Assembly: GCF_001571385.1 (NCBI RefSeq)
Contig: NZ_BCNW01000001.1
Coordinates: 1,116,001 to 1,180,000 of the forward strand
Direction: 5' to 3'
Length of the DNA: 64,000 bases
Source: Methanofollis ethanolicus
GTDB taxonomy: Archaea > Halobacteriota > Methanomicrobia > Methanomicrobiales > Methanofollaceae
Shown: piece after piece, positions 43,285-50,450 of the stretch
How positions within the stretch are numbered: the first letter of the stretch is position 1
Layout of the letters: every line of letters begins with the position of its first letter
Program-made: the position numbers and the translations under genes
The notes under the pieces: generated by a model
Told to the model about the DNA's origin: nothing
Database searches by the model: none
Seen by the model: the letters and a program-made list of their open reading frames with translations, nothing else

Positions 43285-43989
43285 ATGACAGTCTATGTTG
43301 CAATGGACGACACCGACAACCTCGAGTCACGCGGGACCGGGCGGCTTGCACGGGCCGTCGCCGCCGCCCTCGCGGAGACCTATACCGTGTACGGTGTCAC
43401 CCGCCACCAGCTCTTCTTCAATGAAGCGATCCCCTACACCTCCCACAACTCCTGTGCGGTCGTCCACCTCCCCGGGGAAGGGAAGGCCAACATCCCGGAG
43501 ATCTTCGAGACGACAAAGGAGATCATGCTCGGAGACTTCGTCGAGGGAAGCGACCCCGGCCTTGCGGTCGCCGCGGCAGAACAGATCTCTCCTGCCCTCG
43601 TCGCCTTTGGCAAGGACGCAAAATGTACCGTGCTTACCCAGGAGAAAGCGCGGACACTCTCCCGCAACCTCGGCATCAGGCTCGAAGGGCTCGGCGGCAC
43701 AGAGGACGGCGTGATCGGGTCTATGGCCGGGATCGGACTTGCCTCCACAGGGAACGACGGGAGGTTCCTCCAGATTGGTCGGGTCAGGGAGATCACAGGC
43801 CCCGCAGAGGTCGACACTCTTCTCGGCGCCGGCATCGATATGATCTGCACCCTTGACGGCAGACCGGTCGACGGCGGAACAATCTGGTGCAAAGAGGGCA
43901 AGTCTGTCAAACCCTGTCCGATCGGTGGCAGGGCCGTCCTCTACGTCGAAGAGAAGGACGGGCAACTCTGGGGAGTAAAGAGAGACTGA
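43285..43989 (+). CDS. Short TiaS-like protein (tRNA-Ile2 agmatinylcytidine synthase paralogue)
   Basis: 234 residues with ACAGGAGATTTCT before the ATG and a TATA-like TTTTTATCC ~45 nt upstream. The N-terminal VAMDDTDNLESRGTGRLAR matches the start motif of TiaS-type proteins, which use ATP to attach agmatine to tRNA. Full-length TiaS is about 420 residues with OB-fold and zinc domains; this protein has only the N-terminal region and a C-terminal end PCPIGGRAVLYVEEKDG. It is likely a paralogue with another role. One base separates it from the next gene, placing it at the head of the ECF operon. Confidence 0.7.
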   Translation: MTVYVAMDDTDNLESRGTGRLARAVAAALAETYTVYGVTRHQLFFNEAIPYTSHNSCAVVHLPGEGKANIPEIFETTKEIMLGDFVEGSDPGLAVAAAEQISPALVAFGKDAKCTVLTQEKARTLSRNLGIRLEGLGGTEDGVIGSMAGIGLASTGNDGRFLQIGRVREITGPAEVDTLLGAGIDMICTLDGRPVDGGTIWCKEGKSVKPCPIGGRAVLYVEEKDGQLWGVKRD

Positions 43990-43990
43990 C

Positions 43991-44788
43991 ATGGAGTTCC
44001 GGACGCGCGTCATCGCCGGTTTCGCCGTTCTGGCCGTGATCGCTGTCCTTGCGGTGGCAGTCCAGATCATGGCGGAGTCCCTCTGCATGACCGATGACGA
44101 GACACCGCTCCCGATCATCTCGTCAGAGATGACCTTCACGCGGTCCGACTTCCTGTACGGCCCCGCGGAATACAGGCCGTACGCCCATCCCCTCTCCCTG
44201 AACACCCTGACAGGCGACCCCGATGGCCAGTGGTACCTCATGTACGTCATGCTGAACGAAACACCGCAGGGGGGCAACCCCTTCCTCTTCAAAGTACAGT
44301 CTGTCGCCGTCGACTACGAGTTCACCGACCTTGCCGGCACGGCCGCCGTCTCCGTCTACGGGGCGCGGCCCTTCGGTGGGGCGGCATGGACGAACAGGCA
44401 GGACGGTTATGGCTCATGCGGGTATTTTGTCCAGGGCACGGCCGACGTGGGCGAGGACATGCCCTGGACAGTCCCCCTCAAGGCTGGCAACCCGGCTATG
44501 GTCCGCCTCTCCAACACCCACGGCCTCGGCCCCGACGAGATCCCGACAGGCACCGTTACCTTCGTGTTCGAGCGGGACGGGAGCGGGCTTGACGCTCTCC
44601 ATATCACGACCGACCCGGCCCAGAGGAAGGGCGGAGTCACGCGCGACGCCCCCGAGACCGGGCGGTTCTACCTCACACACACGGGCGGGAGCGCCGTCGG
44701 GTCGGTCTACCTCCTCATCGCGGTGGACCGCCCCCAGCCCGACACTTTCTCCCTGAAACTCACGACACAGTACGCGGAGGTGGCATGA
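43991..44788 (+). CDS. Exported protein with surface module in swapped B-A order, upstream of ECF S component
   Basis: 265 residues. An N-terminal membrane helix or signal (VIAGFAVLAVIAVLAVAVQI) is followed first by the B half of the surface module (SDFLYGPAEYRP, YLMYVMLNETPQGGNPFLF, AVDYEFTDLAGTAAVSVYG, AAWTNRQDGYGSCGYFVQG) and then by the A half (VTFVFERDGSGLDALHITTD, GRFYLTHTGGSAVGSVYLLI). All other copies in this window have A before B, so this is a circular permutation. It overlaps the S-component start by ATGA. A ligand-capturing partner of the transporter is the simplest inference. Confidence 0.75.
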   Translation: MEFRTRVIAGFAVLAVIAVLAVAVQIMAESLCMTDDETPLPIISSEMTFTRSDFLYGPAEYRPYAHPLSLNTLTGDPDGQWYLMYVMLNETPQGGNPFLFKVQSVAVDYEFTDLAGTAAVSVYGARPFGGAAWTNRQDGYGSCGYFVQGTADVGEDMPWTVPLKAGNPAMVRLSNTHGLGPDEIPTGTVTFVFERDGSGLDALHITTDPAQRKGGVTRDAPETGRFYLTHTGGSAVGSVYLLIAVDRPQPDTFSLKLTTQYAEVA

Positions 44789-45333
44789 TGGCGGTGAAAG
44801 ATCCCTACTTTTCCCTGTATGAGACTGCCCTCCTTTCCCTCTGCGGGGCGTTTGTCTTCGTCGCGAAGACCATGGTCAAGATCCCCCTCCACGTGCCGGG
44901 CCACTCCGGGATCTTCATCGCGATCCCTTTCATCATCGGTGCCGGGCTCGTCAAAAAGCCCGGGGCCGCCACCTATATCGGGCTGATCTCAGGTCTCCTA
45001 TTCTCCTTCTTCGGCCTTGAACCTCTCCACCTCTTCGATGTCTTCAAGTACGTGGCAATGGGCCTCGTCGTCGACGCCGTCTCCGTTCTCTTCGCCTTCC
45101 GCATGGAAAACCCGGCCGTCGGCTTCATCGCCGGGGCGGCCGGCAACATCGCGAAGATGGCGGTGAACTACAGCGTCCACATTCTCCTCGGTGTCCCGGC
45201 CACCTTCATCATCCTCGGCATCGGCATCTCTTCGGTGACCTTTCTGATCTGCGGCGGGATCGGTGGGGCGATCGGCGCTCTTGTCATCGGCCGCCTCCTC
45301 AGGGCCGGAGTGATCGGAGGCCATGGTACCTGA
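44785..45333 (+). CDS. ECF transporter S component (substrate-binding membrane subunit)
   Basis: 182 residues, about six hydrophobic segments, the normal size for ECF S components. The N-terminus has ETALLSLCGAFVFVAKTMVK, and the first loop IPLHVPGHSGIFIAIPFIIG. A helix pattern with Ala/Gly (FIAGAAGNIAKMAVNYS) is typical of the surface that contacts the T subunit. The substrate cannot be read from sequence; candidates are a vitamin, corrinoid precursor or metal. Translationally coupled at both ends. Confidence 0.8.
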   Translation: MMAVKDPYFSLYETALLSLCGAFVFVAKTMVKIPLHVPGHSGIFIAIPFIIGAGLVKKPGAATYIGLISGLLFSFFGLEPLHLFDVFKYVAMGLVVDAVSVLFAFRMENPAVGFIAGAAGNIAKMAVNYSVHILLGVPATFIILGIGISSVTFLICGGIGGAIGALVIGRLLRAGVIGGHGT

Positions 45334-46759
45334 CGCGATCCTCATCGAGGGACTCTCGGTCTCCTATCCGCCCGACAGGTCGGGGCAGGAGAGGCGAGCA
45401 CTCAAGGGCGTCTCCTTTGCCGTCAGGGAGGGGGAGTTCGTCCTCCTTGCCGGCCCCTCGGGATCGGGCAAGTCCACATTGCTGCGGTGCATCAACGGCC
45501 TCATTCCCCACTCGCACCGGGGGACGGCAGAGGGCCGGGTCGTCGTCCGCGGCCACGAGGTGAGGGACTGTCAGGTCTGCCGCCTTGCCCTTGAGGTCGG
45601 GACAGTTTTCCAGGACCCCGACCACCAGCTCTTCACCACCAGTGTCGAGGCCGAACTCGCCTTCGGGCTCGAACAGATCGGCCTCTCCCACCTGGAGATG
45701 GAGGCACGGATCAGTCATGCGGCCGGGACGATGGGGATCGACTATCTCCTGAAGAGGGATGTGGACGCCCTCTCCTGGGGGGAGAAACAGCGGGTGGCGA
45801 TCGCGGCGGTCCTTGCGATGGAGCCCTCCGTTCTCCTCCTCGACGAGCCCACATCAGGGCTCGACGTCGACGCCTCCCGGAGGCTTGTTGCAGTCCTCTC
45901 CCACCTGAACAGGGAGAGGAGCCTGACCATCGTCGTCGCGGAGCACCGCACCGCCCCCTTCCTGCAAGTCTGCACGCGTGTCGTCGGCATCAGGGACGGG
46001 ACGGTCGTATCCGACGGCCCTCCCGTGGCATCTGCCGGACCCCTACCTGAGGCATTTTCGGCCGTCACCGCACCCGGCACCGGAAACCTCCTCCTCGCTT
46101 TCGAAGGAGTGACCTATACCTACCCGGGCCAGGACCACCCGGCCCTCGACAGCGTGACCTTCGGGGTCGGTGCCGGCGAGATCGTCCTCCTCACCGGGCC
46201 GAACGGCTCGGGGAAGAGCACTCTCCTGCGGCATGCGAACGGGCTTCTCCGACCGGACCGGGGGAAGGTTATCGTGAACGGTCGGGAGACGGTTTCCCTC
46301 ACCGTGGCCGCGGCCGCCCGCTCAATCGGGCTCCTTGCCCAGCACGCCGACACGCAACTCTTCGCGGAGACGGTCAGGGACGAGATCGCCTTTGCACCTG
46401 AAAACCTTGGATATGCCCCGGAAAAAACCGGCCTCTGCGTGCAAAGGGCGCTGAAGATACTCGGCCTTGAGAGGATAGGCACGGACACGCCCCCTCTCAA
46501 CCTCTCGGTGGGGGAGAAGCAGCGCGTCGCCATCGCGAGCATCCTTGCCATGGACACGCCCGTCCTCGTCCTGGACGAACCGACGCTCGGCCTCGACCCT
46601 GCACGCAAGACCGAACTTGCCGCCCTGCTGAGAGACCGCACCGGCGCCGGGTGTGCCGTCCTCGTCGCCACCCATGACCCGGAGTTCGCCGCGTTCTGTG
46701 GCGGCCGGAGGGTCGCTCTCAGGGGGGGACGGATCGTGGCGGAGGGAGACGAAGGATGA
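45323..46759 (+). CDS. Fused ECF transporter ATPase (EcfA-EcfA')
   Basis: 478 residues with two complete ABC ATPases in tandem. First: Walker A GPSGSGKST, signature LSWGEKQRVAIA, Walker B VLLLDEPTSGLD. Second: GPNGSGKST, LSVGEKQRVAIA, VLVLDEPTLGLD. Energises vitamin or metal uptake with the S and T subunits. The ribosome binding site GATCGGAGG sits inside the end of the S gene, which it overlaps by 11 nt. Confidence 0.95.
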   Translation: MVPDAILIEGLSVSYPPDRSGQERRALKGVSFAVREGEFVLLAGPSGSGKSTLLRCINGLIPHSHRGTAEGRVVVRGHEVRDCQVCRLALEVGTVFQDPDHQLFTTSVEAELAFGLEQIGLSHLEMEARISHAAGTMGIDYLLKRDVDALSWGEKQRVAIAAVLAMEPSVLLLDEPTSGLDVDASRRLVAVLSHLNRERSLTIVVAEHRTAPFLQVCTRVVGIRDGTVVSDGPPVASAGPLPEAFSAVTAPGTGNLLLAFEGVTYTYPGQDHPALDSVTFGVGAGEIVLLTGPNGSGKSTLLRHANGLLRPDRGKVIVNGRETVSLTVAAAARSIGLLAQHADTQLFAETVRDEIAFAPENLGYAPEKTGLCVQRALKILGLERIGTDTPPLNLSVGEKQRVAIASILAMDTPVLVLDEPTLGLDPARKTELAALLRDRTGAGCAVLVATHDPEFAAFCGGRRVALRGGRIVAEGDEG

Positions 46760-47535
46760 CAAAAAAAGGCGTCTATTTCGTGCCGGGGAACACCTGGCTC
46801 CACCGCCTCGACCCGGCGACAAAGACCGCGGCCCTGGTCATCGTCAGTGCGACTGCTCTCCTCACCGAAGAGCCCCTGCCCGTCTTCGCCCTCTGTGCAG
46901 GTGTCGCCCTCATCGCTACACTCTCCCACCTATTCAGACCATTTGTACGGTCGCTACGCTTTCTGACGCCCCTCTTTCTTTTCGTCCTGATCATCGACGC
47001 CTTCTTCCCCCGCGCCGTCTCCGGCGCTGTCTACGTCACCACCGGTATCGGACCCCTCCAGCTCATCCTCTCTGAAGGCGGCATCCTTTTCGCCCTTGCA
47101 ATGGGACTCCGCCTCCTTGCCATCGGCGGCTACTCTTTCCTCTTCATCATGACGACGCCCTTCTCAGAATTTGTCGGGAGCATGCGTTCTCTCGGCCTCC
47201 CGAACACCCTCGCCTTCTCCCTGGGCTATGCGCTCCGCTCCATCTCGGCTCTCACCGCAGACGTCGCCGGGATCATGGACGCCCAGAGGTCGCGGGGCCT
47301 TGAATTCGACAGGGGAAATCTGCTGGAAAATAGGCACAAGATCCTGGCGCTATTTGTCCCGGCGACGGTCTTGGTCCTTTCACGGGCGCGGCAGGTCTCG
47401 GAGGCGATGGAGTGCCGGGGATTCGGCTGCACAGACCACCCGACGCGGTACGGCAAGAGGAGCGTCACACCGGAGGACGCATACCTGATTCTGCTCGTTC
47501 TCGCCTGCGCTGCCCTTGCGGCCGCTCTCTCATAA
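46756..47535 (+). CDS. ECF transporter T component (EcfT/CbiQ-like)
   Basis: 259 residues, ATGA overlap with the ATPase gene. Starts WLHRLDPATKTAALVI, a hallmark of CbiQ/EcfT, with about five membrane helices and two cytoplasmic coupling helices: IMDAQRSRGLEFD and AMECRGFG, the paired Ala/Cys-Arg-Gly motifs that bind the ATPases. The gene ends at 47535 and overlaps the 3' end of the convergent nitrogenase-like gene by 6 nt. Confidence 0.93.
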   Translation: MTKKGVYFVPGNTWLHRLDPATKTAALVIVSATALLTEEPLPVFALCAGVALIATLSHLFRPFVRSLRFLTPLFLFVLIIDAFFPRAVSGAVYVTTGIGPLQLILSEGGILFALAMGLRLLAIGGYSFLFIMTTPFSEFVGSMRSLGLPNTLAFSLGYALRSISALTADVAGIMDAQRSRGLEFDRGNLLENRHKILALFVPATVLVLSRARQVSEAMECRGFGCTDHPTRYGKRSVTPEDAYLILLVLACAALAAALS

Positions 47536-48636
47536 CCTTTTCGTCTCCTGGCAGGCATTGAGGACGTCGTCCATCAGGGAGAGCGAGCCCTCGATCCCGG
47601 CAAGGGTGCGGGCCCGCAGGCGGACCCGGCCGCGCTGCGGGAAGGTGATCCCCACGTAGGGGACATCAGGGGCGACCGCATGCTCGAAGGACGACCCCAG
47701 GATCAGGCCGGGCTCGGTCTCCAGGATCATGTCCCTGATCGCGTTGAGGGAGGTGACCGCGCCCTCTCCGTTCCGCGGGGCACGGACGACGACCTCGGCG
47801 TCGAGATAACGGACGAGGGCGTCGGAGACGAAGGTGGCGTATGCCGCCTCCCCGAAGACGGCGACAGTCGGGGGGTCAGAGCGGGAGAGGAACTTGTCTG
47901 AGGCGCGGCCGATCCTCTCCTCCGCGGCGTCGGCTTCGTCGAGCACGGCCCCGACATCGAGGCCGCGGAGATCGGCGAGTCTCTCGAAGGCCGTCTCTGT
48001 CGCGGGGATGCCGAGGAGGGATCCGGCAGGTGTCCCGATACCGGACGCAAGGCCCGGGTTGGTCTGGAGGACGGCCGCACCGCATCGGCGGAGACTGTTG
48101 AGAGGGCCCGCGGCGATGGCAGCGGCGACGGTCCCCCCGGCCGCGCCGACCAGTCTTTCGGCCTCCAGCATGTTCCCCCGCCAGAAGGGGTCGATCGGGT
48201 TCAGGCCGTCGATGGTGACGCCGGTTTCGCCGGGATCGACGGTCGGGGCAAGAGCGGAGATCGCCCGCCTGTACCCCTCCTCCATGCCGCCGGTAAAACC
48301 CGGACTGTCGACGACAAACGCCTCTATCCCCTCAAGGGCCTTTCCGATGTCCTCCCCCATCACGGCAGGGACGCAGCTCTGGACCACCGCCACTGGTCTG
48401 CCCGTACCCGCGATCTCGCCGACCACCCGGCGCAGGCGCTCCTCCGCCCCGAAGATCACCTCCTCCTCCACGATGAGGGTGGCATGGATGGGCGTCTGGA
48501 GAAGAGAGGCCGGATAAAAGTAACAGCCCGAAGAGCCGTGGATCACCACGTCAAGGCCGGAAAAGCCGGAAAGGCAGGACGCGGCGCCGCACATTGCGCA
48601 GGGCCAGACCGGGTTTGAGCAGAGACGTTCAGGCAT
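47530..48636 (-). CDS. Nitrogenase component 1-like subunit (second, NifK/E-type position)
   Basis: 368 residues from ATG 48636, which overlaps the preceding stop by 8 nt; a longer in-frame ATG at 48711 would run through the neighbouring gene. P-cluster-type cysteines: an N-terminal Cys patch (NPVWPCAMCGAASCLSGF), VVIHGSSGCYFY and VVQSCVPAVMGEDI. About 120-150 residues shorter than NifD/NifK and comparable to CfbD. No FeMo-cofactor His/Cys ligands are recognisable. With the next two genes it should form a two-component reductase. Related known enzymes are CfbCD (coenzyme F430), BchNB/ChlNB and methylthio-alkane reductase; no group can be assigned by eye. Confidence 0.85.
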   Translation of the reverse strand: MPERLCSNPVWPCAMCGAASCLSGFSGLDVVIHGSSGCYFYPASLLQTPIHATLIVEEEVIFGAEERLRRVVGEIAGTGRPVAVVQSCVPAVMGEDIGKALEGIEAFVVDSPGFTGGMEEGYRRAISALAPTVDPGETGVTIDGLNPIDPFWRGNMLEAERLVGAAGGTVAAAIAAGPLNSLRRCGAAVLQTNPGLASGIGTPAGSLLGIPATETAFERLADLRGLDVGAVLDEADAAEERIGRASDKFLSRSDPPTVAVFGEAAYATFVSDALVRYLDAEVVVRAPRNGEGAVTSLNAIRDMILETEPGLILGSSFEHAVAPDVPYVGITFPQRGRVRLRARTLAGIEGSLSLMDDVLNACQETKRL

Positions 48637-49672
48637 GGATCTGCCTCCTCCAGCGGTGGAGCAGTCGCCTGACCCCGGCCGTCCCGACAGGCGGACTGTA
48701 CGGGAGGGCAAGGCCGGCGCCGCCGGTGTCGGCCTTCAGGTCGAGCGCCTCCATAACCCGGCGCACAGGTGCATATTCCACGGCATGAAGGGTCATGGGG
48801 CCAGGGGAGAAGGCCGCCCCCCGCATGTCTGCAAAGGAGGCGAGCATCTCCTGCTGCCTCTCCTCCTCCGCGGCGACGGCGTCGTCCGACGGCATGCCGA
48901 GGGCCGACCCTGCTTCCTTCAGGAAGCTGATGCTCCCCTCCATCCCGATGGGAAATGACGAGATGTACGGGGTGCCGAAACGCTTCTTCAGTGCCTCGCC
49001 GACAGGGGCGAGGGCAGGTTCCCTGAGGATGTTCAGCCGCCCGGCCCCGATTTTCGCGAGGTCGGCGAACCTGACCTCTCGCACAAAGCGCAGGCCGACA
49101 TCGACACCAAGGGCAGCAAGGAGTCTTTCGACCTCCCTGTAATTCTCCTCGACCTCGAACTCCAGGTTCTTCTCCCCGATGATCGTCACCGTCTCTGTCT
49201 CGGCAGGCACCGGGTCCGCCGCACCGGCAAGGGCCGTCAGGGCCGCATGCAGCCCGTCCGTAAAGACACCGCCGAGGAAACCGGCCGTCGGCACAGGGAC
49301 GACAGGCACGCCGAAGTCGGTGGCACAGACAGAGGCGACATCGTCTCCGATCGTCCCGGCGATGCAGGTCGTGAGGACAAAGACCGCAGCCGCCCCGCCG
49401 TCGACAACCCGCCTGACCGTCCTCTCCAGCGCCTCCTCGCCGCCGAAGATGATATCGCGCTCGCCCAGGTCGGTGGAGACCACTGACGGGAGGCGCAGAC
49501 AGCCCTGGTCGGCCATGACGGCATGGAGGAGAGAAAAATTGTGGTGGGCGCACCCGGCAGGACCGTGCACGACGGTGACGGCGTCCTCTACCTGTGTGGT
49601 GACCGAGAGAGCGCCTGTGAGGGTGCAGCCCTCATACCGGCGTGAACTGGAGGGCGAGGTCTTCAAGTTCAT
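48629..49672 (-). CDS. Nitrogenase component 1-like subunit (first, NifD-type position)
   Basis: 347 residues from ATG 49672; a TTG at 49681 is in frame. Three cysteines at the expected spacing: [10 protein letters not shown] (~16), [14 protein letters not shown] (~41) and [13 protein letters not shown] (~102). [18 protein letters not shown] is typical of nitrogenase-like component 1. It differs clearly from the second subunit, so a heteromer rather than the CfbD homodimer is expected. It overlaps the NifH-like gene by 41 nt and the next gene by 8 nt, consistent with translational coupling. Confidence 0.85.
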
Positions 49673-50450
49673 CCATCTCAAGGGGTGTCGGTATCGAACT
49701 CCGGGTGTTTGCTGTCACCTGTGCGGCAAGACTCCGGTAGACGGCGGCCTGCTCCGATGCAGGGGCATACTCCATCACCGTCTGCCTGTGGATCTCGGCA
49801 AGCTGCACGGTCCGGGACCGCGGGATATAGGCGACCATCTCGGAGTTGATCCGCCGGGCAAACTCGCGGACAAGTTCCTCCTCGCCCTCGGTGTTCTTCG
49901 CGTTGCAGATGACCCCGGCGAGGCTGCACGAACTCCGCGACCTCTGGGAAAGCCGTGCGATCGCCTTGGCGATGTTGTTGGCGGCGTACAGGGCCATCAG
50001 TTCCCCGGACGTGACAAGATAGACCTCCTGCGCATATCCCTCCCGCATCGGCATCGCAAACCCGCCGCAGACGACGTCACCCAGGACGTCATAGACGATC
50101 ACGTCACCTTTCAGGGCCCCGAGACGTTCGAGGAGCTGGAAGGTGGCGATGATCCCCCGGCCAGCACAGCCGATGCCGGGCTCGGGGCCGCCGGCCTCGA
50201 CGCACCTGACACCCGCATACCCGGTAAAGACCACCTCGTCGGTGGTGATCTCGCCTTCGCCCCGTTCCCTGACAAGGTCGAGGACGGTCGGTATCCATGC
50301 CCCGTGCATCAACATCCTGGTAGAATCGTGCTTCGGGTCACAGCCGATCTGCAGGACGTCAAGGCCGACCTCTCCGAGAGCCGCTGAGAGGTTTGCCGAC
50401 GTGGTGGATTTGCCGATCCCTCCCTTGCCGTACAGGGCGATCTGTTTCAT
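49632..50450 (-). CDS. NifH-like Fe protein (nitrogenase-type reductase component)
   Basis: 272 residues from ATG 50450 ([16 protein letters not shown], the canonical NifH/BchL beginning); ATG 50471 adds seven residues. P-loop GKGGIGKST; switch [11 protein letters not shown]; the two [4Fe-4S] ligands in [13 protein letters not shown] and [13 protein letters not shown]. Transfers electrons ATP-dependently to the component 1-like pair. First gene of the nitrogenase-like operon. TATATA lies just upstream at 50474-50481, which would put transcription start at or near ATG 50450 (possibly leaderless). No nifB, nifE or nifN-like maturation genes are present in the window. Confidence 0.93.

Follow-up and report, generated by a model that had tools for sequence, protein, structure and literature searches.

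Three overlapping genes of Methanofollis ethanolicus, designated H, D and K, appear to encode a nitrogenase-like reductase that is specific to the Methanomicrobiales and would act on a tetrapyrrole-type molecule. The Fe protein, H, would also serve as electron donor to CfbD, and the ECF transporter genes beside the set form a separate, genus-level neighborhood. We assign this reading as a whole a probability of about 0.5. Nitrogenase-like enzymes act on substrates that are hard to reduce, and a function has been assigned to only a few of them; CfbCD, Mar and Isr belong to group IV (PMC11423573), and a 2012 study described a class of nitrogenase-like pairs that lack FeMo-co ligands and have three cysteines in each subunit (PMC3464626). 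The near-universal, order-specific presence of HDK in major environmental methanogens hints at an unrecognized reduction in their core metabolism. In the literature that we searched, we found no description of an order-wide HDK, of an H shared with CfbD, of a genome lacking D and K, or of the tie to the fused system described below.

The genes lie in a 64,000-nucleotide stretch of contig NZ_BCNW01000001.1 (the window). All six genes of positions 43285-50450 (H, D, K and the S, A-A' and T components of the ECF transporter) are open, and a further coding sequence lies upstream of the ECF operon:

43288-43989, plus strand: protein weakly similar to methanogenesis marker 11/a TiaS domain, upstream of the ECF operon
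44785-45333, plus strand: ECF S component (PF09819, 27.1 bits, just above the cut-off of 25.2)
45323-46759, plus strand: ECF fused A-A' ATPase (two ABC_tran domains; TIGR04521 and TIGR04520 over cut-off)
46756-47535, plus strand: ECF T component, CbiQ family (PF02361, 100 bits)
47530-48636, minus strand: K, component-1 beta-like subunit, 368 aa (PF00148, 103.5 bits)
48629-49681, minus strand: D, component-1 alpha-like subunit, 350 aa (PF00148, 199.6 bits)
49632-50450, minus strand: H, NifH/CfbC-like Fe protein, 272 aa (PF00142, 362 bits)

The true start of K is at 48636, rather than at the first TTG (48711), and frames overlap by 41-50 nt between H and D and by 8 nt between D and K. A preliminary description of the window had recognized a NifH-like Fe protein with both cluster cysteines, two different component-1-like subunits with three P-cluster-type cysteines each, and a convergent ECF operon overlapping K by 6 nt, and each of these features was confirmed. 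In H, the P-loop GKGGIGKS and the cluster cysteines C95 and C128 are invariant among 21 orthologues. The cysteines at the P-cluster positions (C19, C44 and C106 in D; C13, C38 and C88 in K) are likewise invariant in alignments of 22 orthologues, as is an additional cysteine of K, Cys6. The S, A-A' and T components are encoded in one operon, and the stops of the T gene and K overlap at 47530-47535. An Rfam search of the window returned no matches, and no relatives were found among viral contigs.

HDK is a core trait of the Methanomicrobiales and specific to this order. The D family is present in 61 of 62 sampled genomes of the order, scoring at least 380 bits in all of them; outside the order, none of 234 genomes of the phylum has it, the highest score there being 187 bits. 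Among named relatives, those closest to D all belong to the Methanomicrobiales: Methanofollis first (89%), then Methanoregula, Methanoculleus and others. In the loci examined, H, D and K occur together as overlapping genes; within one family, some genomes have K displaced by a few kb, in most cases onto the opposite strand. Since the triad is kept across an archaeal order, the locus lies far beyond chance. One genome (G050, 99% complete) lacks D and K and retains H and cfbD. Its H is still flanked by TrkH, desulfoferrodoxin-like and flavodiiron-type genes, as in its relatives; D and K were lost in place.

The sequences of D and K set them apart from the characterized component-1 proteins. In 13 of 13 D sequences the FeMo-co ligand Cys275 is replaced by Glu or Asp and His442 by a gap, which rules out N2 fixation and argues against clusters of the nitrogenase, NifEN or Mar type. 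Neither subunit exceeds the cut-off of any curated NCBIfam family: D and K each score 38 bits against TIGR03282 (CfbD, cut-off 268), and D reaches at most 72 bits against the BchN, BchB and BchL families (cut-off 490). In the component-1 tree, D and K form separate clades (100/100), outside Nif, Bch and CfbD. The sister of D is the E part found in a fused H-E protein (99/93), and that of K, with moderate support (92/71), is the separately encoded partner of the fused protein. The TIGR03282 scores and the tree position exclude D/K as a CfbD. Thus, the earlier proposal of a nitrogenase-like reductase that neither fixes N2 nor is CfbD, lying outside the characterized Nif, Bch and CfbD clades of the superfamily tree, holds for D and K.

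The sister system offers an indication of substrate class. A fused nifH/nifE gene accompanied by a nifN-like gene was noted earlier (Dos Santos 2012; PMC3464626). We found the fused H-E protein and its partner encoded with CobN, ChlI/ChlD-like, CbiK and CbiZ proteins and with a PBP/FecCD/ATPase (BtuFCD-type) importer, an arrangement that points to a candidate metal-tetrapyrrole pathway. These clusters (L183-L188, e.g. L186:646-16467) occur in Methanosarcinaceae-type genomes and in a few Methanomicrobiales. The two systems are sister clades, both from methanogens and both devoid of FeMo-co ligands. They differ in that fusion of H and E, and adjacent CobN, ChlID, CbiZ and importer genes, are seen in the fused system only, and its partner protein has Asp, Cys and Pro in place of three cysteines. 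Because the sister system is encoded with chelatase- and cobalamin-type genes, we infer tetrapyrrole-type chemistry for D/K as well. Co-distribution of D/K with CobN itself was considered and rejected as patchy, CobN being present in only 28 of 54 genomes of the order and absent from many that have D/K.

Structure prediction is consistent with this assignment. BchB of DPOR is the best structural match of both AlphaFold models: for D (pLDDT 85) with a Z score of 29.1 (3.7 Å over 322 residues; NifN, 27.1), and for K (pLDDT 88.5) with a Z score of 37.6 (2.4 Å over 360 residues; MarK, 33.9; NifK/N, ∼32). On these models the lead of BchB is small for D and clear for K, and the likeness may stem partly from compact size. 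DPOR (BchLNB) also shares the H-D-K architecture and the lack of FeMo-co, but it belongs to a separate clade and to phototrophs, and BchB does not have the three-cysteine set. The sister system with its CobN, ChlID, CbiK and CbiZ genes and the DPOR-like predicted folds independently support a tetrapyrrole-type substrate; the preliminary description had suggested a cofactor-like molecule.

Most likely, then, judging by analogy with the sister system and by the modeled folds, D/K reduces a tetrapyrrole-type molecule. An H dimer carrying one [4Fe-4S] cluster would use ATP to deliver low-potential electrons to a putative D2K2 tetramer, whose six conserved cysteines would hold an Fe-S cluster at the P-cluster position. 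Given that the FeMo-co and L-cluster ligands are absent, D/K would have no such cofactor, and an open, BchB-like pocket may bind and reduce the tetrapyrrole-type molecule. Besides the patchy distribution of CobN and the lack of a conserved tetrapyrrole gene beside HDK in loci of the window's type, two observations count against this reading: the full six-cysteine set is common to NifDK/MarDK and NifEN and is not found in DPOR, and NifE is the nearest curated family of D by sequence.

The first of these observations would fit a reductase whose substrate is something other than a tetrapyrrole, for instance another methanogen cofactor or a C-S bond, on which the methylthio-alkane and isethionate reductases (Mar and Isr) act. 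Mar and Isr share the HDK operon, the six P-cluster-type cysteines of NifDK are reported for MarDK as well (PMC12552129), and no conserved tetrapyrrole gene was found beside HDK in loci of the window's type across the order. However, MarDK holds an [Fe8S9C] cluster (PMC12552129), whereas D lacks the cofactor-ligating cysteine and the histidine of FeMo-co-type sites. Furthermore, unlike MarB and IsrB, no radical-SAM B gene adjoins the operon in the window, and none is conserved among 41 loci. We consider this alternative rather unlikely.

The second observation raises the possibility that D/K is not catalytic but works as a NifEN-like scaffold, holding or maturing the L-cluster made by NifB, for example on behalf of the complex that activates methyl-coenzyme M reductase (MCR). 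D scores 122 bits against NifE and finds NifEN as its best PDB match by sequence, the 3+3 cysteines are arranged as in NifEN, and MCR activation in methanogens depends on NifB and L-clusters (PMC12176620). D/K nevertheless forms a clade apart from NifEN, and D has Glu or Asp where NifE retains the L-cluster cysteine (LVQC). The L-cluster requirement is moreover universal in methanogens, whereas D/K is confined to one order and is dispensable in G050. A scaffold role is accordingly unlikely, somewhat more so than reduction of a non-tetrapyrrole substrate.

The Fe protein probably links the locus to coenzyme F430 synthesis. H scores 418 bits against the F430_CfbC model NF033200 (cut-off 402) and 225 bits against the BchL family, below its cut-off of 345. 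Fe proteins adjoining nif-type component-1 genes (L216, L214, L215) also pass NF033200; the passing of H is therefore weak evidence for CfbC, and the model, which does not tell CfbC from nif-type NifH, over-annotates CfbC. In an Fe-protein tree that contained no class I methanogen CfbC sequences, H stands as a separate clade (100/98), apart from both the cfbD-linked CfbC (100/99) and NifH (100/100). AU tests rejected neither canonical CfbC (p = 0.37) nor the H portion of the fused proteins (p = 0.30) as the sister of H. With p = 0.37, H fits both recruitment and divergence of CfbC, and a firm claim that H displaced the ancestral CfbC is not upheld.

The M. ethanolicus genome encodes a canonical CfbD elsewhere, beside cfbE, and no separate cfbC was found in it. 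Hence, of cfbC and cfbD, only cfbD was found elsewhere in the genome, and H is probably the CfbC of this organism. The only other NifH-like gene, at C1:705230, was rejected as a second genuine nifH: it is a broken nifH remnant (G000:C1:703730-707326, minus strand, ∼1474-2100) that lacks the N-terminal portion with the P-loop and is frameshifted close to its C-terminus. No nifDK was found in the genome. Across the order, cfbD is present over cut-off in 7 of 7 genomes tested, and 58 of 61 genomes have a single copy of H, which is the sole Fe-protein match in 39. The extra Fe proteins of the order score best with NifH or H-like models or are parts of fused proteins, and the model of cfbD-linked CfbC from Methanosarcina-type genomes was never the best for any of them. 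As H is the only candidate in most genomes and is kept where D/K was lost, it most likely serves CfbD in F430 synthesis besides D/K. These genomes are most simply explained if H acts as the CfbC of the order, with D/K as a second, dispensable partner. If so, one Fe protein would donate electrons to two catalytic partners, which bears on the evolution of partner specificity. The earlier argument that two distinct subunits speak against a simple CfbCD is thus correct for D/K but incomplete, since H is probably also CfbC. CfbCD resembles HDK in its NifH-like donor, component-1 fold, Fe-S-only cofactors and occurrence in methanogens. It differs in that CfbD is a homodimer with its own clade and two of the three cysteines, whereas D and K are two different subunits with three cysteines each, and cfbD-linked CfbC falls in a different clade from H.

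A common Fe protein, restriction to methanogens and the compact, BchB-like predicted fold could also suggest that D/K is an auxiliary F430 reductase, adding to or replacing CfbD for part of the six-electron reduction. This is improbable: the genome encodes intact CfbD and CfbE, CfbCD suffices elsewhere, and G050 lives without D/K. A bolder extension of the preferred reading, that of a tetrapyrrole-type reductase sharing its Fe protein with CfbD, is that the order lost canonical CfbC, that both homodimeric CfbD and heterotetrameric D/K depend on a single Fe protein, which was recruited together with the D/K operon, and that the product of D/K is an as yet unseen reduced tetrapyrrole standard in the Methanomicrobiales. 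We put this forward tentatively, as a speculation that could well be wrong.

The preliminary description had further proposed that the reductase acts on an imported molecule, and here the comparison across the order went against it. ECF genes adjoin HDK in 8 of 9 Methanofollis loci; of the 32 loci belonging to other genera of the order, none has them there. The S component is present in 18 of 54 genomes of the order; outside the genus (8 genomes) it is located elsewhere in the genome, unlinked to HDK, and 34 sampled genomes have D/K without it. The ECF-HDK pairing is a recent, genus-level neighborhood and not a conserved pathway; with linkage limited to the genus and the S component absent from most HDK genomes, the link is incidental. 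That transporter and reductase form one pathway for a vitamin-like molecule, as the 6-nt convergent overlap, the linkage within the genus and the FecCD/BtuC-type importer adjoining the sister system might suggest, is therefore refuted as an order-wide mechanism and is highly improbable even as the explanation of this locus. The S component had no useful match in PDB. Among known transporters, the operon is closest to the YkoEDC-type ECF systems, which likewise combine an S component of the PF09819 family with a T component and a fused A-A' ATPase in a single operon; the window's operon bears no relation to HDK outside one genus.

Several further arrangements were seen among the loci. Lone component-1 homologues of ∼390-430 aa, with no second subunit adjacent, occur in several Methanomicrobiales and relatives (L196, L197, L199). 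Two genomes of family f6 carry NifH and two component-1-like genes beside PBP, FecCD permease and ATPase genes (L272:1-5700, L273). In six genomes of family f2, a NifX/FeMo-co-binding-like protein with a zinc-ribbon tail, recognized by eye without a family search (L069:5699-6217, L070, L072, L074), is convergent to HDK. The protein at 43288-43989 of the window, which scores 31.5 bits against TIGR03280 (cut-off 255.8) and 19.8 bits against PF22641 (cut-off 27), is kept across the genus.
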